A DNA stretch of 64,000 nt. Source: Streptomyces sp. TBY4 (GTDB lineage: Bacteria; Actinomycetota; Actinomycetes; Streptomycetales; Streptomycetaceae). Each line of letters opens with the position of its first letter. The first letter of the stretch is position 1. The notes under the pieces were generated by a model. It saw only the letters and a list, made by a program, of their open reading frames with translations. It ran no database searches and was not told the origin of the DNA. A program made the translations under genes and the position numbers. The stretch covers positions 744,001 through 808,000 of the forward strand of contig NZ_JANAVF010000001.1 in assembly GCF_024213195.1 (NCBI RefSeq), written 5' to 3'. This document shows positions 5,054 through 56,083 of this stretch, one piece after another.

Positions 5054-5710
5054 ATGCCCCACAGCCAAACCTCTGCACCTCGCGTCGGCCTCCTCGGTGG
5101 ACGCCTCGCGCGCGGAGCATCGCCGTGGCTTCTGCCGACCGTCGCCACCGCCGCCGTCAGCCTCGTCCGGGCCCGCAAGTCCGGACGCTGGGCGGCAGTG
5201 GCCGTGCCCACCACCGCGCTCGCGGCGGGCATGCTGTGGTTCTTCCGCGACCCCGAGCGTGAGATCACGCAGGGCCGGGTCATCTCCCCCGCCGACGGTG
5301 TGGTGCAGAGCATCATGCCGTGGAAGGACGGGCGGACCCGCGTCGCGATCTTCATGAGCCCCCTGAACGTCCACGTCAACCGCGCGCCCCTCGCGGGCAC
5401 GGTGACGTCCGTGGAGCACATCCCCGGCGGATTCGTTCCGGCGTTCAACAAGGAGAGCGAGAACAACGAGCGCGTCGTCTGGCACTTCGACACCGAACTC
5501 GGCGACATCGAGATGGTGCAGATCGCCGGCGCCGTCGCCCGTCGCATCGTCCCGTACCTGCCGGCCGGTACCAAGGTGGAGCAGGGCGAACGCATCGGTC
5601 TGATCCGCTTCGGCTCCCGCGTCGACATCTACCTCCCCGAGGGCGTCGAGGTCGCGGTCGAGGTCGGACAGGCCACCACCGCGGGGGTGACCCGAATTGA
5701 CCGTGACTGA
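5054..5710 (+). CDS. psd: Phosphatidylserine decarboxylase
   Basis: The 218-aa protein converts phosphatidylserine to phosphatidylethanolamine at the membrane. It belongs to the short class and self-cleaves to make a pyruvoyl prosthetic group. The cleavage site is the Gly187-Ser188 pair in RFGSRVD, and the other likely self-processing residues D81 (SPADG) and H107 (LNVHVNR) are present. A hydrophobic stretch at about residues 47-64 would anchor it. The next gene, pssA, overlaps its 3' end, so substrate-making and substrate-using enzymes are translationally linked. Confidence 0.94.
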   Translation: MPHSQTSAPRVGLLGGRLARGASPWLLPTVATAAVSLVRARKSGRWAAVAVPTTALAAGMLWFFRDPEREITQGRVISPADGVVQSIMPWKDGRTRVAIFMSPLNVHVNRAPLAGTVTSVEHIPGGFVPAFNKESENNERVVWHFDTELGDIEMVQIAGAVARRIVPYLPAGTKVEQGERIGLIRFGSRVDIYLPEGVEVAVEVGQATTAGVTRIDRD

Positions 5711-6560
5711 ACCTGAAACCCCGGCCGCCGGCTGGGTGCCCGAGGCTGCTCCCGAGGAGGAGTCCACCGAGGACGACATGCCGCTGTCACTGCGGCTGTC
5801 GATAGCGGACACCCTCACCCTCGGCAACGCCACGTGCGGATTCATGGCGGTGTACTTCACCACCACCGGGATCCTCATCCCGCACCTCACCGGCAGCGGT
5901 GAGTCGGGCATGGCCCGCAGCAGCGCGGCCACGGCCGTGATACTGATGCTGCTCGCCGCGGTCTTCGACCTCTTCGACGGCATCGTGGCCCGCAAGCTGC
6001 GCAGCTCGCCGATGGGCGCGGAGCTGGACAACCTGTCCGACCTGATCAGCTTCGGCCTGGCTCCGGCGTACTTCGTCCTCGTCTACGGCATGGTCGCCGA
6101 CGACGCGGTGCAGAAGATGTCGGCGCTGGCGGCGATCGTGGTGCTGCTGGCCGTCGTCCTGCGCCTCGCGAGATTCAGCTGCGTGGCGATGAAGGACGGC
6201 ATGTTCCAGGGCATGCCGAGCCCCTTCGGCGCGCTGACGGTCGTCTCGATCGTGCTGCTGGAGCTGCCGTTCATCCCGACCCTGCTGGCGATCGTCGGCG
6301 TGGCCTGGCTGATGGTGAGCCGGGTCGAGTACCCCAAGCCGCGGGGTGTCCTCGCGGTGGCGATGCTCAGCTGGATCGTCGCGGCGATGGGGCTGCTGGC
6401 CGCGTGGGCGTTCGACGCGCCGGGCGGCGGGCTGCTGCTCCAGACCGGCTGCGCGCTGCAGATCGCTCTGGCGGCGACCATCCCGCTGTTCGCGACGACC
6501 CGTCGCGCGAACACGTTCCGCCACAACCGCCGCGAGGCCCGGGCCACCCAGGCCCCGTAG
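5697..6560 (+). CDS. pssA: CDP-diacylglycerol--serine O-phosphatidyltransferase
   Basis: This integral membrane enzyme makes phosphatidylserine from CDP-diacylglycerol and serine, feeding Psd. The full CDP-alcohol phosphotransferase signature is present: D91-xx-D94-G95-xx-A98-R99-x7-G107-xxx-D111-xxx-D115. Several hydrophobic segments surround it (about 78-91, 118-160 and 180-270). The start is TTG at 5697 or GTG at 5703; both overlap psd (14 or 8 bp). A strong hairpin follows 19 bp after the stop. Confidence 0.93.
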   Translation: MTVTEPETPAAGWVPEAAPEEESTEDDMPLSLRLSIADTLTLGNATCGFMAVYFTTTGILIPHLTGSGESGMARSSAATAVILMLLAAVFDLFDGIVARKLRSSPMGAELDNLSDLISFGLAPAYFVLVYGMVADDAVQKMSALAAIVVLLAVVLRLARFSCVAMKDGMFQGMPSPFGALTVVSIVLLELPFIPTLLAIVGVAWLMVSRVEYPKPRGVLAVAMLSWIVAAMGLLAAWAFDAPGGGLLLQTGCALQIALAATIPLFATTRRANTFRHNRREARATQAP

Positions 6561-6579
6561 CCCCGCCGCACGCGCACGC

Positions 6580-6617
6580 AAGGGCCCCCGACCGCCACCA
6601 GGCAGCCGGGGGCCCTT
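6580..6617 (+). terminator. Terminator of psd-pssA
   Basis: Perfect 11-nt arms, AAGGGCCCCCG (6580-6590) and its complement (6607-6617), surround a 16-nt loop. The hairpin lies just after pssA and ends in a short TT. Confidence 0.8.
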
Positions 6618-6690
6618 CCGCATCCCCGGGGGCCGCCCTACGCCGCTGCGCGGAGCCTGGCCGCCCCGCGGGCCCGCCTGTGCCGCTGCG

Positions 6691-6800
6691 CGGGGCGGAG
6701 TTCCCCTACCCGCCCTTCGCCCGTTCCCCGGGCTGCGCCCGGACCCCCTCTGGGGCTCCGCCCCAGACCCCGCGCCTCAAACGCCGGCGAGGCTGGATAT
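6691..6800 (+). repeat. Intergenic repeat, copy A (Streptomyces GC-rich palindromic unit)
   Basis: This segment shares its blocks, in the same order, with two copies at 13556-13750: CCCTACCCGCCCTTC, CGTTCCCCGGG, a CTCCGCCCC palindromic block, CTCAAACGCCGG and GGCTGGAT. It fills most of the 316-bp gap between pssA and the ada-like gene and does not look coding. It contains several short GC-rich hairpins. The remaining 76 bp before the ada-like start should hold that gene's promoter. Confidence 0.7.
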
Positions 6801-6876
6801 GCCGCGCAGCGGCGCGCTTAGGCTTGGTGTCGGAAAACCGCCAGCCTCAGGCGTGTGCGGTCGGGAGGATGGAGCC

Positions 6877-8370
6877 ATGTACACCGATACGGAGCGTTGC
6901 GTTCGGGCCGTCCAGTCGAAGGACGCGCGGTTCGACGGGTGGTTCTTCACCGCCGTGCGGACCACCGGGATCTACTGCCGGCCCAGCTGCCCCGCCGTAC
7001 CGCCCAAGGTCGAGAACATGACCTTCCTGCCCAGCGCCGCCGCCTGCCAGCAGAACGGGTACCGGGCCTGCAAGCGGTGCCGGCCCGACACCTCCCCCGG
7101 CTCCCCCGAGTGGAACGCCCGTGCCGACGCCGTCGCCCGCGCCATGCGCCTCATCCAGGACGGGGTGGTCGACCGGGAGGGGGTCCCGGGGCTGGCCTCC
7201 CGGCTCGGGTACTCCGCCCGCCAGGTGGAGCGCCAGCTCGGTGCCGAGCTCGGCGCCGGGCCGCTCGCCCTCGCCCGGGCCCAGCGCGCGCAGACCGCCC
7301 GGCTGCTGATCGAGACCTCCGGGCTCCCGATGGGCGACATCGCCTTCGCCGCCGGGTTCTCCTCGATCCGGACCTTCAACGACACCGTCCGCGAGGTCTT
7401 CGCGCTGGCCCCGAGCGAGCTCCGGGCGCGGGCCGCCGGCCGGGGGGCCGTCCCGGGCCCCGGACCCGCACAGGTGCCCGGCACCATCAGCCTGCGGCTC
7501 CCCTTCCGGGCCCCGCTCACCCCGGACAACCTCTTCGGCCACCTCGCCGCGACCGCCGTGCCCGGGGTCGAGGAGTGGCGGGCCGGCGCCTACCGCCGCA
7601 CGCTGCGGCTCCCGTACGGCACCGGCGTCGTCGCCCTGACCCCGCGGCCCGACCACATCGGCTGCCGGCTCGCCCTCACCGACCTGCGCGACCTCACCAT
7701 CGCCATCAGCCGCTGCCGCCGGCTGCTGGACCTCGACGCGGACCCGGAGGCCGTCGACGAGCAGCTGAGCTCCGACCCGCTGCTGGCGCCCCTCGTGGCC
7801 AAGGCTCCGGGCCGCCGGGTGCCGCGTACGGTCGACGCGGAGGAGTTCGCCGTACGGGCCGTGCTCGGCCAGCAGGTGTCCACCGCGGCGGCGCGCACGC
7901 ACGCGGCCCGCCTCGTACGGGCCCTCGGCGAGCCGGTGACCGACCCCGACCCCGAGGGCGGGCTGACGCACCTGTTCCCCACCTCGCAGGCGCTCGCGGG
8001 GATGGACCCCGAGGCGCTGGCCCTGCCGCGCAGCCGGCGGACCACCTTCACCACGCTCGTCTCCGCCCTCGCCGACGGCTCGCTCCCGCTCGGCATCGAC
8101 AGCGACTGGGAGGCGGCCCGCGCGAGGCTGGGCGCGCTGCCCGGCTTCGGGCCGTGGACCACCGAGATCATCGCGATGCGGGCCCTGGGGGACCCGGACG
8201 CCTTCATTCCGGCCGACCTGGGGATCCGGCGGGCCGCGACCTCGCTCGGGCTGCCGTCCACGCCCGCGGCGCTGACGGCCCGCGCGGCGCACTGGCGGCC
8301 CTGGCGCGCGTACGCCGTGCAGTACCTGTGGGCCACCGAGGACCATCCGATCAACGTCCTGCCCGCCTGA
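6877..8370 (+). CDS. Ada-AlkA fusion: methyl-phosphotriester sensor plus 3-methyladenine glycosylase
   Basis: This 497-aa DNA repair protein has three parts. Residues 1-75 are the Ada N-terminal zinc domain with cysteines C34, C38, C65 and C68 in the YCRPSC and CKRC pairs; one should accept methyl groups from phosphotriesters. Residues about 85-190 are an AraC-type helix-turn-helix. From about residue 200 it is an AlkA-type HhH-GPD glycosylase with the LPGFGPWT hairpin and likely catalytic D447 (PADLGIRR). It lacks the O6-methylguanine methyltransferase domain of E. coli Ada; that activity is encoded by the next gene. The ATG at 6877 follows GGGAGGATGGAG. It is probably self-regulated by alkylation. 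Confidence 0.93.
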   Translation: MYTDTERCVRAVQSKDARFDGWFFTAVRTTGIYCRPSCPAVPPKVENMTFLPSAAACQQNGYRACKRCRPDTSPGSPEWNARADAVARAMRLIQDGVVDREGVPGLASRLGYSARQVERQLGAELGAGPLALARAQRAQTARLLIETSGLPMGDIAFAAGFSSIRTFNDTVREVFALAPSELRARAAGRGAVPGPGPAQVPGTISLRLPFRAPLTPDNLFGHLAATAVPGVEEWRAGAYRRTLRLPYGTGVVALTPRPDHIGCRLALTDLRDLTIAISRCRRLLDLDADPEAVDEQLSSDPLLAPLVAKAPGRRVPRTVDAEEFAVRAVLGQQVSTAAARTHAARLVRALGEPVTDPDPEGGLTHLFPTSQALAGMDPEALALPRSRRTTFTTLVSALADGSLPLGIDSDWEAARARLGALPGFGPWTTEIIAMRALGDPDAFIPADLGIRRAATSLGLPSTPAALTARAAHWRPWRAYAVQYLWATEDHPINVLPA

Positions 8371-46912: not shown

Positions 46913-47050
46913 GCCTCCAGCAAAGCACGCCCGGCTGACAAACCCCACCGCCGGACCCGTCGGGCGGCCGGCCCCCGGGTGGACCGCGGGTGAACGGACC
47001 GCCCGCCCGCGCCCGTGGACCGGCCCCCTCCGGGACTGGGCCGTCTCTTC

Positions 47051-47091
47051 CGGATTCTGCCGGGCCAGCCCGCGCCGCCCGGCAGAATCCG
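47051..47091 (-). terminator. Terminator of the secreted repeat peptide gene
   Basis: Perfect 15-nt arms at 47051-47065 and 47077-47091 with an 11-nt loop, starting 11 bp past the stop of the small secreted peptide gene. Confidence 0.8.
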
Positions 47092-47102
47092 AAAGGGACG
47101 AC

Positions 47103-47312
47103 CTAGTGCTCGTACGCCCCGTCCGACATGTGGAGGAACTGCGGGCCCTGCTCCCCCTGCAGGAACTGCGGGCCCTGCTCCCCGTACGTCTTGCCCTGCA
47201 CCCGGTCCTGCGGCGCGACGCTGATGTGGTTGTCGGCGAAGGCCGGGCCCGCGCCCAGCCCGGCCAGGGCGAAGGCTGCGGTGGCGGCTATGGCGGCGGC
47301 TCTGACGTTCAT
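47103..47312 (-). CDS. Small secreted peptide with tandem GEQGPQFL repeat
   Basis: The 69-aa product has a signal peptide (MNVRAAAIAATAAFALAGLG, cleavage near AFA-DNH at residue 26-27) and a mature chain of about 43 residues containing GEQGPQFL twice in a row. The coding DNA has two identical 23-bp blocks (47134-47156 and 47161-47183), a recent duplication of a 9-residue unit. There are no cysteines. It lies 123 bp downstream of the STAND-TPR regulator on the same strand and has its own terminator. Its function is unknown; an exported signal or a structural peptide are possible. Confidence 0.75.
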   Translation of the reverse strand: MNVRAAAIAATAAFALAGLGAGPAFADNHISVAPQDRVQGKTYGEQGPQFLQGEQGPQFLHMSDGAYEH

Positions 47313-47435
47313 GCTGGTCCCCCCGGGTCCGGCCGGCCCCTGGTCGGGCCGGCTCGGAACCAGGCTGTCAGGCCCGGCCGGAGTCCTGCAACAGCATCGG
47401 GACGATCCGCTCGGCGGACCCGGCGCCGAGGTCGC

Positions 47436-49895
47436 TCAGCGGGCCCCGGCGCCGAGCGCTTCCCGGAGCGAGCGCCCCGCCGTGCGGTGCCCGGCCGCCG
47501 CGGCCGGGTCCGTGCCCTCGAGCAGGGCCGCGATGCCCTCGTGGGCCAGCGCCTCCTCGTGCCGGTAGCCGAGCCCCGGGGCCAGCTCCAGCGTCCGCCG
47601 GTGCAGTCGCAGCGCCTCCTCGGGCAGTCCCGCGAGCCGGCAGGTCTCGGCGTAGCCGCCCAGGAAGCGGACCTTCCAGTGCTCCTCGAACAGCTCGTCC
47701 AGCAGCGCGAAGGCCTCCCGGTGGCCGGCCAGGGCCTCCTCGTACCGGCCCATCCGGCGCAGCCCGACGGCCAGGCAGTTCAGGGACCACGCCTCGTTGT
47801 TCACGTGCCCGTCCTCGCGGGACAGGGCCAGCGCCCGGTGCAGGTGCTCCGACGCCTCCTCGGGAGCCTCCTCGGCGATGGCCACGCCGAGGGTGATGCG
47901 GGCCGTCAGGGTGGGCGGCCAGGCGGGGTCCGGGTGGGACACCTCCAGCACCTCCCGGGCCCGGCGCGCCGCCTCCTCGCGGTCCCCCAGCTGGAGCAGC
48001 GCCCAGGCCTCCGAGGCGGCGGCGTGGGCCGCGCCCGTCGGCAGTCCGGCGTCCCCGTACAGCTTCCCGGCCAGCCGGAACAGTTCGAGCGGCTCCTCGG
48101 CGCTCCCCCGGTCCCAGCTCAGATAGCCGCGGCGCAGGGCCAGTTCGGCTTCGGAGCGGGTGTCCCCCGCCTGTGCGACCCGGAGTCCGGCGGCCTGGTA
48201 GGCGGCCTCGGCCTCGGCCATCCGGCCGGCGTTGTAGCGCGCGAAGCCCAGGTCGCTGTAGGCCTCGGCCAGGCGCAGCGGGTCGCCCAGGCGTTCGGCG
48301 GCGGCCAGCGAGCGCTCGAAGAGGTGGTTGAGGTGGGTCGTGCCGCAGCGCCTCGCGAAGTACGCCCGCAGGAACCGCGGCAGCTCGCACACGTGCACGT
48401 CCGCCCCGACGGCGACCGCCGTCTCGAAGGCGGCGATCATCGTCTCGTACTCCGAGGCGAGCCAGTTGCAGGCCGCGTTCTTGTCGGCGAAGCGCGGCAG
48501 TTCGGCCGGGGCCCGGCCCGCGGAGGGCGGCCGTCCCGGTGACAGGACCGGCATCGCGGCGTCGGCGGCGGCCGCCGCGTGCACGAAGTAGTCGAGGAAG
48601 CGGCCCAGCGCGCGCTCCCGCTCGGCCGGGGAGTCCTGCTGCGCCGAGGCGCCGCGCGCGTGCTGGTGCACCAGGTCGTGCAGCCGGTAGCGGCCCGCCG
48701 TCGGCTGCTGGACCAGGTGTGCGTCGACCAGGTCCTCCAGCATCTCCCGGGCACCGCGCAGCGGTACGTCCGCCAGGGCGGCGGCCGCGTACGCGTCGAA
48801 GGTGCCGCCGGGCAGCAGGCCCAGCATCCGGAACAACCGGGCCTGGGCCCGGTCCAGTTGCCGTACAGACATGGCGAAGGCGGTGTCGAACTCGCTCGCG
48901 CCCTCCGCCAGCCGCTCCACGAGGATGCCCACCGTCCAGCCCGGCCGGTGCCGCAGCCGGGCCGCGGCCAGCCGCAGGGCCAGCGGCAGGTGGCCGCACA
49001 GCCGCAACACCTCGGCGGCGGACTCCGGTTCGCGCCCGAGGCGGCCCCCGGGGCCGCCGGGGTCTCCGCTGGCCCGGGCGAGCAGTTCCGCGCTCTCCCC
49101 CGGGCTGAGCACGTCCAGCGACACGGGGGGCACCTCGTCCAGGCCGAGCAGCCGGTTGCGGCTCGTGATCAGGACGACGGAGTCACCGGCGCCGGGCAGC
49201 AGCGGGCGGACCTGGTCCGCGTCGACGGCGTTGTCGATGACCACGAGGGCGCGCCGGCCCGCGAGTTCCGCGCGCCAGCAGGCCGCCAGCTGTTCGAGGC
49301 CCTCCTGCGGGACCCGCTCGGAGGGAACGCCGAGTGCCCCGAGCAGCATCCGCAGCGCCGAGTCGGGATCGAGGGGCTGCCGGCCCTCGGTGAACCCGTG
49401 CAGGTCCACGTAGAGCTGGGCGTCCGGGTAGTCGGCGGCGAGCCGGTGCGCGGCGTGCACCGCGAGACAGGTCTTGCCCACGCCCGCCATGCCGTCGACG
49501 GCGACGCCGCGGTGGCTGTCCACTGCACCGAGCACCGCGGCGAGTTGCTCCTCGCGTCCGGTGAAGTCGGGTACGTCGCGCGGCAGATCGTTGCGGGGCT
49601 GCGGCTGGACCTGGCGGCTGGCCTTCGGGGGCGCCGGCAGGGTGCCGGAGGAGCCCCGCTCCCAGAGGGGGCGCAGCGGGCGGGGGTCGCGCTTGACCAG
49701 CTTGCAGAGGGCGACCACCGCGGGCCAGGGCGGCACGGTCTGGCCGCTGAGATAGCGCGAGAGCGAGGAGGAGCTGAGCCCCGCGTCCCTCGCGAGGGCC
49801 CGTACCCCGAGCCCCGAAAGCTCCTGGAGCCGTCGCAGCCGTGCGGCCAGCTCGTCCTGCGGGTCGGCCTCGGCCGTCCCCCGTTCCCTGTCCAC
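47436..49895 (-). CDS. XRE-type HTH / STAND (NB-ARC) ATPase / TPR regulator
   Basis: The 819-aa protein has an N-terminal XRE-like helix-turn-helix (about 14-66: VRALARDAGLSSSSLSRYLSGQ), an NB-ARC-type ATPase with P-loop GMAGVGKT (135-142) and Walker B-like ALVVIDNAV, and a C-terminal tetratricopeptide array (about 500-800). It resembles AfsR-family pathway regulators but has an XRE instead of a SARP DNA-binding domain. Such STAND proteins are molecular switches triggered by a ligand bound at the repeats. The GTG start is 210 bp from the divergent AhpD-like gene. Confidence 0.88.
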   Translation of the reverse strand: MDRERGTAEADPQDELAARLRRLQELSGLGVRALARDAGLSSSSLSRYLSGQTVPPWPAVVALCKLVKRDPRPLRPLWERGSSGTLPAPPKASRQVQPQPRNDLPRDVPDFTGREEQLAAVLGAVDSHRGVAVDGMAGVGKTCLAVHAAHRLAADYPDAQLYVDLHGFTEGRQPLDPDSALRMLLGALGVPSERVPQEGLEQLAACWRAELAGRRALVVIDNAVDADQVRPLLPGAGDSVVLITSRNRLLGLDEVPPVSLDVLSPGESAELLARASGDPGGPGGRLGREPESAAEVLRLCGHLPLALRLAAARLRHRPGWTVGILVERLAEGASEFDTAFAMSVRQLDRAQARLFRMLGLLPGGTFDAYAAAALADVPLRGAREMLEDLVDAHLVQQPTAGRYRLHDLVHQHARGASAQQDSPAERERALGRFLDYFVHAAAAADAAMPVLSPGRPPSAGRAPAELPRFADKNAACNWLASEYETMIAAFETAVAVGADVHVCELPRFLRAYFARRCGTTHLNHLFERSLAAAERLGDPLRLAEAYSDLGFARYNAGRMAEAEAAYQAAGLRVAQAGDTRSEAELALRRGYLSWDRGSAEEPLELFRLAGKLYGDAGLPTGAAHAAASEAWALLQLGDREEAARRAREVLEVSHPDPAWPPTLTARITLGVAIAEEAPEEASEHLHRALALSREDGHVNNEAWSLNCLAVGLRRMGRYEEALAGHREAFALLDELFEEHWKVRFLGGYAETCRLAGLPEEALRLHRRTLELAPGLGYRHEEALAHEGIAALLEGTDPAAAAGHRTAGRSLREALGAGAR

Positions 49896-49971
49896 GGTTC
49901 CCCCCGTATCCCTGTCCCGTCGCGCCCGAATTATCCCGGGGTCCGTCTGCGCTGGTCAAGGACGTTCCGCC

Positions 49972-49991
49972 TGTCCCACGGTGTCCCACGG
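49972..49991. repeat. Tandem 10-bp direct repeat in the regulator/AhpD gap
   Basis: TGTCCCACGG occurs twice with no spacer. Direct repeats in a divergent promoter suit binding by a STAND-type regulator, as AfsR-like proteins bind direct repeats, but no data support it here. Confidence 0.4.
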
Positions 49992-50105: not shown

Positions 50106-50564
50106 ATGATGCAGTCCCGCATGCAGAACCCCGCCGTCGTCCTGTCCGGTGCGATGCAGCCCATCCAGGACCTCTTCAAGGCCGTCCACTCCGGTGGCCT
50201 GGACGGGCAGATCCTGGAGCTGGTGCACCTGCGGGTCAGCCAGATCAACGGGTGCAGCGCCTGCGTCGACAGCGGCGCCAAGACGGCCCGCAAGTCCGGG
50301 GTGAGCGACGAGCGGCTGGCCACGGTCGCCGTCTGGCGCGAGACCCCGTACTTCACGGAGGAGGAGCGGGCCGCCCTGCTGCTGGCCGAGGCCGCGACCC
50401 GGCTCGCCGACCGTCCCGACGCGGTGAGCGACGAGGTCTGGGACACGGCCGCCACCTACTTCGACGAGAAGCAGCTCGCCGCGATCGTCCTGATGATCGG
50501 CGTCACGAACCTGTTCAACCGGCTCAACGCCACGACCCGCCAGATCGCCGGCGCGTGGGGATGA
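50106..50564 (+). CDS. AhpD/carboxymuconolactone-decarboxylase-like protein
   Basis: The 152-aa helical protein has the AhpD-type redox pair C50-S-A-C53 in INGCSACVDSG followed by the usual conserved region. It probably reduces a peroxide or disulfide partner. A strong AGAGGAG precedes the ATG. It is divergent from the STAND regulator and may be its target. Confidence 0.88.
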   Translation: MMQSRMQNPAVVLSGAMQPIQDLFKAVHSGGLDGQILELVHLRVSQINGCSACVDSGAKTARKSGVSDERLATVAVWRETPYFTEEERAALLLAEAATRLADRPDAVSDEVWDTAATYFDEKQLAAIVLMIGVTNLFNRLNATTRQIAGAWG

Positions 50565-50636
50565 ACGGCGCGGACCGCCCCGCTTCCTAGTATGACAATC
50601 CAGCTCAATACGCCACTTCCCGGGAGGAAACCCGCC

Positions 50637-51143
50637 ATGACGAACACCAGCCGGTCCACGAAGAGCACGTCCCCGAAGAGCACCGCCACGAAGAGCACGT
50701 CCCCGGAGACCACCTCCGAGAAGTTCTCGGACGACGAGATCGCCGCGATGAAGGAGCACGCCAAGGAGCTGAAGGCGTCCGCGCGCCGCGGATCCCGCGC
50801 CGACAAGGCGGCGGCGGAGGAGGCCGACGTGGTCGCGAAGATCGCCGAAATGCAGGAGTCCGACCGGGTCATGGCGGAGCGGGTCCACGCGATCGTCAAG
50901 GAGAACGCGCCCGGCCTCGCGCCGAAGCTCTGGTACGGGATGCCCTCGTACGCCCGGGACGGCAAGGTGGTCTGCTTCTTCCAGAGCGCGGAGAAGTTCA
51001 AGGCGCGCTACGCGACGCTCGGCTTCAGCGACCAGGCGCACCTCGACGAGGGCTCGATGTGGCCGACCTCCTACGCCCTGACCCGGCTGACGGCCGCGGA
51101 CGAGGCGATGATCGCCACGCTCGTGAAGAACGCGGCACACTGA
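50637..51143 (+). CDS. DUF1801-like protein with Ser/Thr/Lys-rich N-terminal tail
   Basis: The 168-aa protein starts at an ATG with GGGAGGAAA upstream. The C-terminal half ([19 protein letters not shown], then [20 protein letters not shown]) is the DUF1801/YdhG-like fold found in proteins once linked to iron handling. The first 45 residues are a low-complexity STK-rich tail made of repeated AAGAGCACGTCCCCG DNA units (about 50660-50706). Function is not established. Confidence 0.8.
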
Positions 51144-52983: not shown

Positions 52984-53342
52984 CGCGCGTCCTCCGGTCG
53001 GTGGGCTGTCGGCGGTCCTCCGCGGCCGGCGGAGCAGCGGCAGGCGGTTCCGTGGCGGGCGGGCCGGGACGAGCGCGAGAGGGCGGGGAGGAAGTCGGGA
53101 GAGCGCTCTCCGCTGGCCGGAACCTAGTGCCCGTTCCCGGCCGGAGTCAAGGAATCTGCGGTCAACTCACCTGCCGGAGCGGCGGGTTTCCTCAGCGGAA
53201 GGGCCGCCACCGCGCACCCACCCCCGGCCGGATTCCGCGATGTTGGCTCAAGGCGTTCCCTCACGGGGTGGCCTCGGCTAGCTTCTGTCCTCAACTCCCC
53301 CACCCCCCTCACATTCCCCATCCCAGCTCCGGGCGGATCGTT
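52984..53342. other. 359-bp divergent gap with operator and promoter
   Basis: No gene is seen. The gap carries a minus-strand promoter and operator for the APH-fold gene (53098-53150). The plus-strand side before the ABC ATPase has no clear -10/-35 pair. Confidence 0.5.
53098..53150 (-). promoter_or_regulatory. Promoter and LacI-type operator of the APH-fold gene
   Basis: On the minus strand TTGACT (53150-53145) and TAGGTT (53126-53121), 18 bp apart, make a good promoter. The perfect 14-bp palindrome GGAGAGCGCTCTCC (53098-53111) begins 9 bp past the -10, over the start of transcription. It resembles LacI-family sugar operators such as the CebR box. The same palindrome recurs at 61897-61910. 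Confidence 0.75.
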
Positions 53343-54698
53343 ATGAGTCGTTCCATCGCGTTGCGCGATGTCAGCAAGAGATACGGGCCGGGCTCCCTCG
53401 CCGTCGAGCGCGTCTCCCTCACCGTCGAGCCGGGCGAGTTCCTGGTTCTGCTGGGGCCTTCGGGCTGCGGCAAGTCCACCGTCCTGCGGATGATCGCGGG
53501 CCTGGAGGACATCACCGAGGGCGAGTTGCTGCTCGACGGCGAGTACGCCAACCACATGCCGCCGAGCGAGCGGGACATCGCGATGGTGTTCCAGAGCTTC
53601 GCGCTGTATCCGAACATGACGGGTCGCGGCAACATCGGCTTCCCGCTGAAGCTCCGTGATCCCCGCGCGGATCACGAGCCGCAGGTGGAGGCCACGGCCC
53701 GGATGCTCGGCATCGAGGACCTCCTCGACCGCTTCCCCGGGCAGCTCTCCGGCGGCGAGCGCCAGCGGGTCGCGATGGGCCGGGCCATCTCCCGCCGCCC
53801 GTCGGTGTTCCTGATGGACGAGCCGCTCTCCAGCCTGGATTCGAAGCTGCGCGGCCACCTGCGGGCCGAGATCGCCCGACTGACCTCCGAACTGGGCGTC
53901 ACCACGGTCTACGTCACGCACGACCAGTCCGAGGCCATGTCCCTCGGCCACCGGGTGGCGGTGATGCGCGGCGGTGTCCTCCAGCAGGTCAGCTCGCCGC
54001 GGGACACCTACGCCCTCCCGGCGAACGTGTTCGTGGCCGCGTTCATCGGGACGCCCCGGATCAGCCTGCTCCAGGCCGTCGTGCACGCGCCGCTGGGATC
54101 CGGCATGTGGATCGATCTGGGGCGGCACCGGCTCGCGCTCCCCCAACCCCTCAGCGCAGACCACCAGTTGCTCCGGATCCAGCAGGGGCGTCCGGTCATC
54201 GTCGGGCTGCGGTCGGAGGCGGTCAGGATCGCCCCGCCGAGCCAGGCGCGGCCGGGCGAGGTGGCCATGACGGGCATCGTCGAGCACGTCGAGTACCAGG
54301 GGCACGAGGCGCTGGTCCACGTGGACACGGGCTCGCGCCCCGCGGTGGTGGCGGATCTGGAGTCGGCGCGGCATCCGGCCGCTCCCCGGCGCGGTCTCCG
54401 GCGGCAGAAGAGCAGCGGCCTGGGCCGGTTGAGGAAGCGGGCCCAGGAGCGGCTGTCCGGGTCGGTTGCGGTGCTGGACGCGCCGCCGGAATCCGTCCCG
54501 GGGCCGGCCGCGGGCGGCGCCGCGGAACGGCTGGGGGCGGTGCGCAGCGACCTCGTGGTGCGCACGGGACCGCACGTCCGGGTGCGGGTGGGGGCCCAGA
54601 TCCCGCTGCTGGTGGATCTGGGGCAGCTGTACGTGTTCGATCACGCGGGGCGCCGGGTGTCCCCGGCCGGGGACGGGGTCACCCTTCTGGAGCGGTAG
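53343..54698 (+). CDS. MalK/MsiK-like ABC transporter ATPase
   Basis: The 451-aa ATPase has Walker A GPSGCGKST (38-46), the signature LSGGE (135-139), Walker B FLMDE (156-160) and a C-terminal TOBE/OB region of sugar-importer ATPases. It is about 70-80 residues longer than a usual MalK/MsiK because of an insertion rich in Arg, Pro and Gly at about 345-420. It could power the ATPase-less sugar importer at 56268-59476, or several importers as MsiK does. It starts at ATG 53343. Confidence 0.88.
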   Translation: MSRSIALRDVSKRYGPGSLAVERVSLTVEPGEFLVLLGPSGCGKSTVLRMIAGLEDITEGELLLDGEYANHMPPSERDIAMVFQSFALYPNMTGRGNIGFPLKLRDPRADHEPQVEATARMLGIEDLLDRFPGQLSGGERQRVAMGRAISRRPSVFLMDEPLSSLDSKLRGHLRAEIARLTSELGVTTVYVTHDQSEAMSLGHRVAVMRGGVLQQVSSPRDTYALPANVFVAAFIGTPRISLLQAVVHAPLGSGMWIDLGRHRLALPQPLSADHQLLRIQQGRPVIVGLRSEAVRIAPPSQARPGEVAMTGIVEHVEYQGHEALVHVDTGSRPAVVADLESARHPAAPRRGLRRQKSSGLGRLRKRAQERLSGSVAVLDAPPESVPGPAAGGAAERLGAVRSDLVVRTGPHVRVRVGAQIPLLVDLGQLYVFDHAGRRVSPAGDGVTLLER

Positions 54699-54716
54699 CA
54701 CCGTGGCGCCGGCCGG

Positions 54717-54755
54717 CGGCCCACCTCGCGCGCTGCGGCGCCGCGGGGTGGGCCG
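54717..54755. terminator. Bidirectional hairpin between ABC ATPase and ROK regulator
   Basis: Fourteen-nt arms (54717-54730 and 54742-54755) with one mismatch and an 11-nt loop sit between the two convergent stops. Confidence 0.75.
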
Positions 54756-54760
54756 GGGGC

Positions 54761-56083
54761 TCAGTGCGCCGCCCGCTCCTGCAGCGTGGTGCGCCAGGCG
54801 GGGAGCGGCTCCTCGCGCTCGGGTTCGGCGCGGTGGCCGCCGCGGGCGAAGAAGTCGGCGAGCGGGAGGATGCCCGCGCCGACGGTGACCGCGTCGGGGC
54901 CGAAGGTGCCCAGGTCGATGCGGACGCTGGAGGCCGGGTACGACAGGGCGTAGGAGGTGGCGTAGGACCGTACGGAGTCCAGGAAGCGGGTGCCGAGCTG
55001 CAGGCCGGCCCAGCCGCCGACGAGGATGCGTTCGGGCTGGAAGAGGTTGATGAGGTCGGAGAAGCCGGCGCCGAGGTACTCGGCGGTCTCCTCCAGGACG
55101 GCCAGGGCCGTCGCGTCGGGCAGCGCGGTGGCTCCGTCGGCGTCCGGTGAGGGGTAGGCGGCGGCGAGCATCGCGGTGAGGGCGGTCTCCTCGTCGGCGT
55201 CGGCGGGCGGGCGTCCGCCGGCCTCGGCCCAGCGTTCCAGGAGGGCTTCGGCCCCCGCGTACGCCTCCAGGCAGCCCTGGGCGCCGCAGCGGCAGCGGCG
55301 TCCGCGGACCCGTACGGTCAGGTGGCCCCACTCGATGGCGCGGCCGGTGCGGGTGTCGTCGCTGACCACGCAGGCGCCGACGCCGGAGCCGAAGAGCACG
55401 ACGACGGCGTTGTGCGCCCCGCGTCCGGCGCCGAACCACATTTCGGCCTGTCCGAGGGTTTTGGCCCCGTTGTCGATGTAGTACGGGACGGTTTCGGGCA
55501 GCAGTCGGGAGTCGCGCAGCATGCGTTCGAGGGGGACCGCGTCCCAGCCGATGGTCTGACCGTGGACGACGGCGCCGTCCGCGTTCCTGGCGACGATGCC
55601 GGGCACGCCGATGCCGACGCCGAGGAGCCGCTCGGGCGCGATGCCGGCCAGGTGCAGGACTTCGGCGATGCCCTCGCGCAGGTGCCGTACGACGACCGCG
55701 ACGTCGTAGCGGTCGATGCGGCGGGGCCCGGCCGCCGCCTCCAGGGGGCGTTCGACGCGGGCGAGCTCGGTCAGGGTCAGGTCGAAGAGCTCTATGCGGA
55801 TCCGGGTCTCGCCGACGTCCACGCCGATCATGTAGCCGCTCTCGGGGCTGACGCGGAGCAGGGTCCGGGGGCGTCCGCCGGCGGATTCGACGCTGCCGGC
55901 TTCCTCCACCAGGCCGTCGCCGACCAGCTCCGCGACCACGTTGCTGATCGATCCGGAACTGAGGCCCGTGGCGGGGCCCAGCGAGAAGCGGCTCAGGGGA
56001 CCGTCGAAATACAACCGTTGCAGAACGGCGGTCCGGTTCTCCCGCCGCAGGTCACGCACTGTTCGGCCGCTACGTACTCGCAC
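54761..56083 (-). CDS. ROK-family transcriptional regulator
   Basis: The 440-aa regulator has a MarR-like N-terminal helix-turn-helix (LSRFSLGPATGLSSGSISNVVAEL) and a ROK sugar-binding domain with the zinc motif CRCGAQGCLE (about 264-273). The kinase-site Asp found in ROK sugar kinases (ENDAN) is replaced (IDNGA), so it is a repressor, not a kinase. GTG at 56083 is favoured by the AGGGGA before it; an upstream TTG (56116) would add 11 residues. It is divergent from the sugar importer/GH1 operon and should control it. Confidence 0.9.
   Translation of the reverse strand: MRVRSGRTVRDLRRENRTAVLQRLYFDGPLSRFSLGPATGLSSGSISNVVAELVGDGLVEEAGSVESAGGRPRTLLRVSPESGYMIGVDVGETRIRIELFDLTLTELARVERPLEAAAGPRRIDRYDVAVVVRHLREGIAEVLHLAGIAPERLLGVGIGVPGIVARNADGAVVHGQTIGWDAVPLERMLRDSRLLPETVPYYIDNGAKTLGQAEMWFGAGRGAHNAVVVLFGSGVGACVVSDDTRTGRAIEWGHLTVRVRGRRCRCGAQGCLEAYAGAEALLERWAEAGGRPPADADEETALTAMLAAAYPSPDADGATALPDATALAVLEETAEYLGAGFSDLINLFQPERILVGGWAGLQLGTRFLDSVRSYATSYALSYPASSVRIDLGTFGPDAVTVGAGILPLADFFARGGHRAEPEREEPLPAWRTTLQERAAH

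Follow-up and report, generated by a model that had tools for sequence, protein, structure and literature searches.

To our knowledge, the signals of STAND regulators, including those of the global antibiotic regulator AfsR, are poorly known. One source on AfsR describes inhibition by its NOD and tetratricopeptide repeat (TPR) regions, relief of this inhibition by ATP, and a box that overlaps the −35 element of afsS (PMC10936776), and a second describes AfsS as a protein of 63 aa that carries three repeats of 12 aa each and the gene of which is activated by AfsR (PMC2267785). Here we analyse a locus with related parts in a 64,000-nt stretch of Streptomyces sp. TBY4 (RefSeq assembly GCF_024213195.1, contig NZ_JANAVF010000001.1, positions 744,001 to 808,000), hereafter the window, in which a gene for an XRE-NB-ARC-TPR regulator is followed by a gene for a small export-type repeat peptide. 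The original prediction, made from the sequence alone, regarded these two genes as a possible peptide-switch pair. We find that the lasting partner of the regulator is instead a divergent AhpD-like gene, and that it is quite probable that the regulator is a STAND switch dedicated to an AhpD-like/DUF1801-like operon via a tandem site, with the peptide as a satellite and not a required part.

The regulator has the composition originally described, with a helix-turn-helix (HTH) head, a P-loop (GMAGVGKT) at residues 135-142 and TPRs, and it is encoded in the same direction as the peptide gene. Matches to HTH_31 (residues 15-75), NB-ARC (122-317) and TPR_12 toward the C-terminus were all above cut-offs, and the protein thus combines the NB-ARC ATPase, DNA-binding head and repeat sensor that characterize STAND transcription regulators. 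The nearest PDB structures to residues 102-494, the stretch containing NB-ARC, were those of AfsR (8k60, E 3e-66; 8jke, E 2e-65). The regulator is not AfsR proper, given that its head is HTH_31 with no BTAD and that it scores 316 bits on NF053617 against a cut-off of 1430. HaaT (NF041717) gave the best curated match at 336 bits and an FxSxx-COOH model (NF040586) the third at 114 bits; identity with HaaT was rejected as well, the cut-off of that model being 1125. Since AfsR itself reaches 298 to 321 bits on the HaaT model, this likeness appears to be that of STAND-TPR proteins in general.

To place the regulator among its relatives, we analysed the best 80 of 115, which belong to the Streptomycetaceae, Streptosporangiaceae, Thermomonosporaceae, Nocardiaceae, Pseudonocardiaceae, Micromonosporaceae and Catenulisporaceae; best-segment identity to the regulator was at least 71% in 77 and 48-49% in three (L116, L118 and L119). 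An AhpD-like gene lies divergently and directly upstream of the regulator in 75 of these 80 loci. Three of the five loci without it have no upstream DNA (L088, L098, L100) and two lack it (L084, L092), which gives 75 of 77 among loci with upstream DNA. The gene is also found in eight of nine longer stretches (L158-L163 and L192-L194, three of which duplicate other loci). Of the 77 loci among the 80 that have no peptide gene, 72 have the AhpD-like gene. A DUF1801-like homologue is present in 56 of the 80. The partner protein scores above the cut-offs of both the carboxymuconolactone decarboxylase (CMD) and ahpD_dom models and its structure matches are of the PA0269 type; within the family C50 is kept in 75/75 proteins and C53 in 71/75.

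The intergenic region between the two genes holds a tandem TGTCCCACGG repeat (49972-49991) that had been put forward as the candidate site of the regulator. Across 76 such regions (the 75 loci and the window), TGGGACA-N3-TGGGACA occurs exactly in 68, with one mismatch in six and with two mismatches in two (including L045), whereas none of 1520 dinucleotide shuffles came closer than two mismatches and six reached two. Even the relatives of 48-49% identity retain the site, exactly in two cases and with one mismatch in the other. The double box sits upstream of the promoter-like hexamers of the regulator, and a third box, GGGACR, follows box 2 at 53 nt in 70/76 regions, the next commonest offset accounting for 5/76. 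At up to one mismatch the pattern occurs once in its own genome, where the reversed control gave 1 + 1 matches by chance; no second copy was found there at this threshold, and thus nothing points to a wider regulon. This conservation, far beyond chance, bears out the proposal and strongly supports a deeply conserved operator-like site, to which the regulator presumably binds.

Features of the regulator-peptide locus in the window, and of comparison loci in genome G371
Feature	Position	Strand	Remarks
Inverted repeat 3' of peptide gene, 31-nt arms	47035..47107	.	terminator-like by place
Export-type repeat peptide gene	47103..47312	-	69 aa, ATG start
Tandem 26-nt direct repeat in peptide gene	47131..47183 (copies 47131-47156 / 47158-47183)	-	
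Promoter-like block of peptide gene, GTTGCAGGAC ... CTGACAGCCTG	47361..47392	-	few differences across all 7 members
XRE-NB-ARC-TPR (STAND) regulator gene	47436..49895	-	819 aa, GTG start
Third box GGGACA near regulator start	49913..49918	-	
Promoter-like TTGACC-18-GATAAT of regulator, sigma-70-like	49930..49959	-	between double box and third box
Operator-like direct repeat TGTCCCA-N3-TGTCCCA (TGGGACA-N3-TGGGACA on - strand)	49972..49988	.	
AhpD-like / CMD-family gene	50106..50564	+	152 aa, regulator's conserved partner
DUF1801-like gene	50592..51143	+	below Pfam cut-off
nSTAND1-WD40 / peptide loci, genome G371	L252 693-3494; L253 2-3180; L259 5546-8741		

The peptide has a far narrower range. 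A peptide profile run on 392 genus genomes yielded seven true members, G000, G012, G046, G074, G083, G209 and G320 (G046, G209 and G320 being the same records as L045, L106 and L097), and weak matches in 23 other genomes. All seven lie behind this regulator at a gap of 77 to about 180 bp, except in L045/G046, where the peptide gene is about 1.1 kb off and the roughly 0.9 kb of additional DNA between the two genes contains an open frame of up to 430 aa. The 89 regulator rows (the window, the 80 relatives and eight more) comprise 87 distinct loci, as L016 and L019 duplicate L041 and L052, and the peptide is present beside seven of these; downstream DNA is short in three of the rows, with almost none in L111 and between about 1.1 and 1.5 kb in L098 and L100. 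A quick tree built from 88 rows places all seven peptide loci within one 10-row Streptomyces clade (SH-aLRT 96), the other members of which are L040, L042 and L013 (G054). The peptide label changes four times on this tree, at least three of these changes being forced by well-supported branches, as a single gain with a few later losses would predict. L040, the closest of the 80 relatives with a regulator 93% identical, lacks the peptide and keeps the AhpD-like gene with the exact site. Downstream it retains the genes for the inositol phosphatase (94%) and the amine oxidase (98%), and at the place of the peptide it has a degraded 76-nt match to the upstream region of the peptide gene followed by about 1.3 kb unmatched to the window.

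The peptide gene also has a conserved upstream block of its own. The block, GTTGCAGGAC...CTGACAGCCTG, is nearly invariant in 7/7 family members, the sequence above it is not conserved, and it occurs once in its own genome at up to three mismatches (control matches, 0). Because the gene has this block of its own, within which the TGGGACA site was not seen, it is most likely a separate transcription unit. A terminator scan called none at the inverted repeat 3' of the gene. A fixed regulator-peptide pair is not supported, being rejected by the range of 7/87 and by L040, and the pair as originally conceived gives way to the separate upstream block and to the AhpD-like gene as lasting partner. The expectation that the peptide gene always sits beside the regulator holds in one direction, every peptide having its regulator, and fails in the other, with 80 of the 87 regulators standing without a peptide; a peptide gene common without the regulator, which would have counted against the prediction, was not what the 392 genus genomes contained.

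What had been said of the peptide itself largely stood. It is an export-type product of 69 aa (47103-47312) with two adjoining GEQGPQFL units, its sequence includes ADNHISVAPQ, its N-terminus is signal-peptide-like by eye and pattern only, and it had no match in Pfam (E 0.1), NCBIfam (E 10) or PADLOC (E 0.01). The two identical 23-bp blocks are real: the direct repeat has one mismatch over 26 nt, with 23 identical bp at a spacing of 27 nt, and the longest exact repeat in 2000 codon shuffles of the gene was 14, with none reaching 23. The claim that the duplication was recent is favoured by these 23 identical bp and weakened by the L097 homologue (Streptomyces sp. H27-H1), which already has two such units with copies less alike. 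Both unit number and unit sequence vary among strains carrying the family, in line with the suggestion that repeat number might differ; the unit is readable as DGxF(E/G)(H/E)(L/Q)(S/G)PQxL, and a C-terminal VVGDLATN is present in 5/7 members and absent from the window copy and G046. As a separate observation, the regulator of Streptomyces sp. ISL-43 (L163/L106) reads in two frames, with a break near residue 257 that is possibly a draft sequence error, and its peptide is intact.

Given that AfsR is the nearest relative of solved structure, we propose, by analogy, ATP- and signal-gated switching of the AhpD-like operon. The regulator would be a one-component switch, with an XRE DNA-binding head, an NB-ARC ATPase and a TPR sensor, that binds TGTCCCA-N3-TGTCCCA between the two genes, with a third box near its own start. 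NB-ARC and TPR would inhibit it, ATP plus a signal would release this inhibition, and the released regulator would most likely activate the AhpD-like/DUF1801-like operon and adjust its own expression. The 69-aa peptide would be transcribed separately, as a satellite of the locus and a relative, confined to this lineage, of an exported AfsS-like class. Several observations weigh against this proposal. The placement of the third box near the regulator start could point to repression instead. The catalytic His of AhpD usually stands at the position after CxxC, and since Gly replaces it in 74 of the 75 AhpD-like proteins, a peroxidase activity of the partner is uncertain. In L194 (G033, 5270-7249) the locus is a broken copy, in which all that is left of the AhpD-like gene is a fragment and all that is left of the regulator is its C-terminal half, the two lying side by side. 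Finally, the fact that the peptide was never found without the regulator (7/7) speaks for some tie between them, as does G012, in which the peptide stays beside the regulator in a 12-kb stretch that contains neither the inositol phosphatase nor the amine oxidase gene.

We judge it an even chance that the peptide is an output or companion of the AfsS-like exported kind, namely a small secreted effector or a surface peptide, whose gene came to lie behind a STAND regulator, with or without being controlled by it. Some of the weak matches of the peptide profile were very small secreted peptides encoded downstream of AfsR and of a small repeat open reading frame (ORF), and we built a profile (A3) from four such AfsR-linked exported peptides and searched the 392 genomes with it, matching 57 genomes in 66 rows. 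In favour of a companion, the window peptide is the sole A3 match in its own genome (E 2.7e-5), and A3 also recovers G320, G209 and G012; against it, G074, G083 and G046 were not found at E 1e-3, leaving 4/7 members matched. A mature start D-x-H-x-x-V-x-P-Q, beyond the signal peptide, is common to the window family and the AfsR-linked peptides, and mean best 9-mer scores against 40 AfsR-linked mature peptides were 24.3 to 26.4 compared with 14.6 to 17.4 after shuffling, although single shuffles reach 27 to 38 and that of G320 equals its best real score. Profile A1 finds AfsR-linked peptides only at E 7.5e-5 to 5e-4, a range that proteins sharing just a signal peptide reach as well, and the site of the regulator is absent from the peptide's upstream block. 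The window peptide is not AfsS, as the curated model NF053616 matches 0/7 family members at E up to 10 and the N-terminus is of the export type. By the marks of the exported class, as we draw it up here (a signal peptide, D-x-H-x-x-V-x-P repeats behind it and a neighbouring STAND gene), a regulator adjoins the window peptide and the mature start is shared, while profile matches are weak and cover four of seven members. From these comparisons the peptide is likely a relative of the exported AfsS-like class; as judged from sequence, the likeness is short and partly that of a signal peptide.

The 23 genomes with weak matches were dropped from the family count, as many share the signal peptide only (among them what we take to be an M6 protease and an AA10-like protein); six of them (G305, G333, G124, G159, G043 and G097) belong to the exported repeat class. 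Of 91 signal-peptide-like ORFs in the loci examined, 17 carry the motif [DE]xH directly after AxA, and 16 of these 17 belong to the two peptide families; as the loci were selected for those families, only the rate in the remainder is informative, namely one in at most 75.

We inspected 46 loci of the exported class outside the window family, with 14 further weak loci not included. An AfsR homologue ends 509-1026 bp upstream of the peptide in 40 of the 46, with a small ORF between; these 40 belong to a single orthologous family and, in evolutionary terms, carry the weight of one observation. The block of AfsR, small repeat ORF and exported peptide was seen, with exceptions, among L151, L153-L156 and L225-L264. 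The two AfsR homologues tested (L154 and L151) pass the AfsR cut-off. Of eight small ORFs tested, those of L151 and L225 pass the AfsS cut-off, those of L239, L233 and L261 fall below it and those of L154, L226 and L255 have no match; with only two of eight passing, 'AfsS' is here partly a name by place. The other six loci have no AfsR- or P0002-like match: in three (L252, L253 and L259), all from genome G371, an nSTAND1-WD40 gene lies divergent to that of the peptide, and in L237, L157 and L250 no STAND gene is shown beside the peptide. As far as these comparisons go, STAND regulators of three builds have exported repeat peptides beside them, namely AfsR (40/46), nSTAND1-WD40 (three) and the XRE-NB-ARC-TPR regulator of the window, and a broader link between such peptides and STAND regulators appears to emerge. 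The link first suspected between peptide and regulator thus fails as a fixed pair and gains partial support from an unexpected side, with relatives of the peptide lying behind AfsR, another STAND-TPR regulator. In S. coelicolor, afsS is SCO4425, and the exported AfsS-like peptide may be SCO4424. SCO4424 is entered as 'Possible secreted protein' in PMC3897704. The genome of the window also has an AfsR-like gene followed by a small DNHAAG-repeat ORF with a weak AfsS match of 17.5 bits (L180, 2838-6372), and no exported peptide was seen in the 0.8 kb read behind that ORF.

Within a genome, the small ORF and the exported peptide tend to have matching H-centred motifs. Over the 40 AfsR loci the mean best 5-mer score was 24.95 versus 20.14 for mismatched pairs, and none of 20000 permutations of the pairing was as high; five mature sequences (L243, L251, L257, L260, L263) and the L243 small ORF were set manually. 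With the nearest AfsR relative's small ORF as the comparison, only 18 cases went up and nine down, with 13 ties (p about 0.05 to 0.06), so that any co-variation beyond shared ancestry is at most marginal.

A less favoured explanation, which we regard as rather unlikely, is that the two genes are chance neighbours, an unrelated small secreted protein having come to lie after the regulator in one clade. The confinement to a single clade, absence from 3/10 clade members, the separate upstream block and the short, partly signal-peptide resemblance to AfsR-linked peptides are all consistent with this. Working against it, the own genome has 14 NB-ARC matches (150 of 184 candidates scored), at which a random adjacency would be rare (by rough estimate 0.2 to 0.4%), and relatives of the peptide also stand beside STAND regulators, with the caveat that the AfsR cases are one orthologous family. 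We find it improbable that streptomycetes have a class of short exported repeat peptides linked to STAND regulators of at least three builds, and that these peptides, or cytosolic AfsS-like repeats with matching motifs, are signals or outputs through which such STAND sensors act, in an actinomycete class unlike RRNPP. The regulator may possibly sense the peptide, but it ranges well beyond the peptide, the peptide gene has an upstream block of its own, and the AfsR precedent also speaks against such sensing. Very improbable is the peptide switch first envisaged, in which the mature peptide or pieces of it would be re-imported, bound by the TPRs and switch the regulator, at least in its clade: the 7/7 placement, the recurrent STAND association (40/46 loci behind AfsR, three beside nSTAND1-WD40) and strain-variable repeat number and units, as often in peptide signals, argue for it, and against it argue the 80/87 loci without a peptide, the upstream remnant left in L040, the conserved upstream block, the approximately 0.9 kb between the genes in L045, the intact peptide beside the two-frame regulator of ISL-43, and the role of AfsS as output, not ligand, of AfsR in PMC2267785.

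We thus retain the reading of a dedicated switch with a satellite peptide. It provides, in the conserved operator and partner operon, a concrete, testable target for this XRE-STAND-TPR family, and the occurrence of exported repeat peptides beside STAND regulators, including AfsR, points to gene pairs amenable to testing in laboratory strains of Streptomyces. Among the open-access papers listed by our searches, none was on the regulator-AhpD pair or on peptide-sensing STAND-TPR regulators, nor on HaaA or exported AfsS-like peptides. Elsewhere in the window, a 771-aa ORF (53124-55439, minus strand) had no Pfam match at E 0.1 and may not be a gene.

Compared with described systems, the locus resembles RRNPP of Firmicutes in joining an HTH and TPR regulator to an adjacent export-type peptide gene, and differs in the STAND ATPase between HTH and TPR and in that most relatives have no peptide. 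Membership in RRNPP was rejected on both counts (NB-ARC at 122-317; peptide at 7/87 distinct loci), and the RRNPP-type parallel drawn originally fails on architecture. HaaT and FxSxx-COOH proteins are by name TPR proteins of small-peptide systems, namely of ribosomally synthesized and post-translationally modified peptides (RiPPs; cyclophanes for HaaT), but the 336 and 114 bits of the regulator are far below their cut-offs of 1125 and 300, and no RiPP enzyme was found among nine window proteins scanned. The partner passes the CMD and ahpD_dom cut-offs and is in this respect like the AhpD/carboxymuconolactone decarboxylase family, but has Gly after CxxC where AhpD usually has His. In comparison with the AfsR-AfsS system, AfsR has a SARP head where the regulator has XRE, no cytosolic small repeat ORF lies between regulator and peptide here, the operator sits by the divergent AhpD-like gene, and the AfsS model is unmatched by the peptide; the two systems nevertheless share a related NB-ARC stretch, a TPR part behind it and a tiny repeat protein next to it, and related exported peptides sit behind AfsR and its small repeat ORF.

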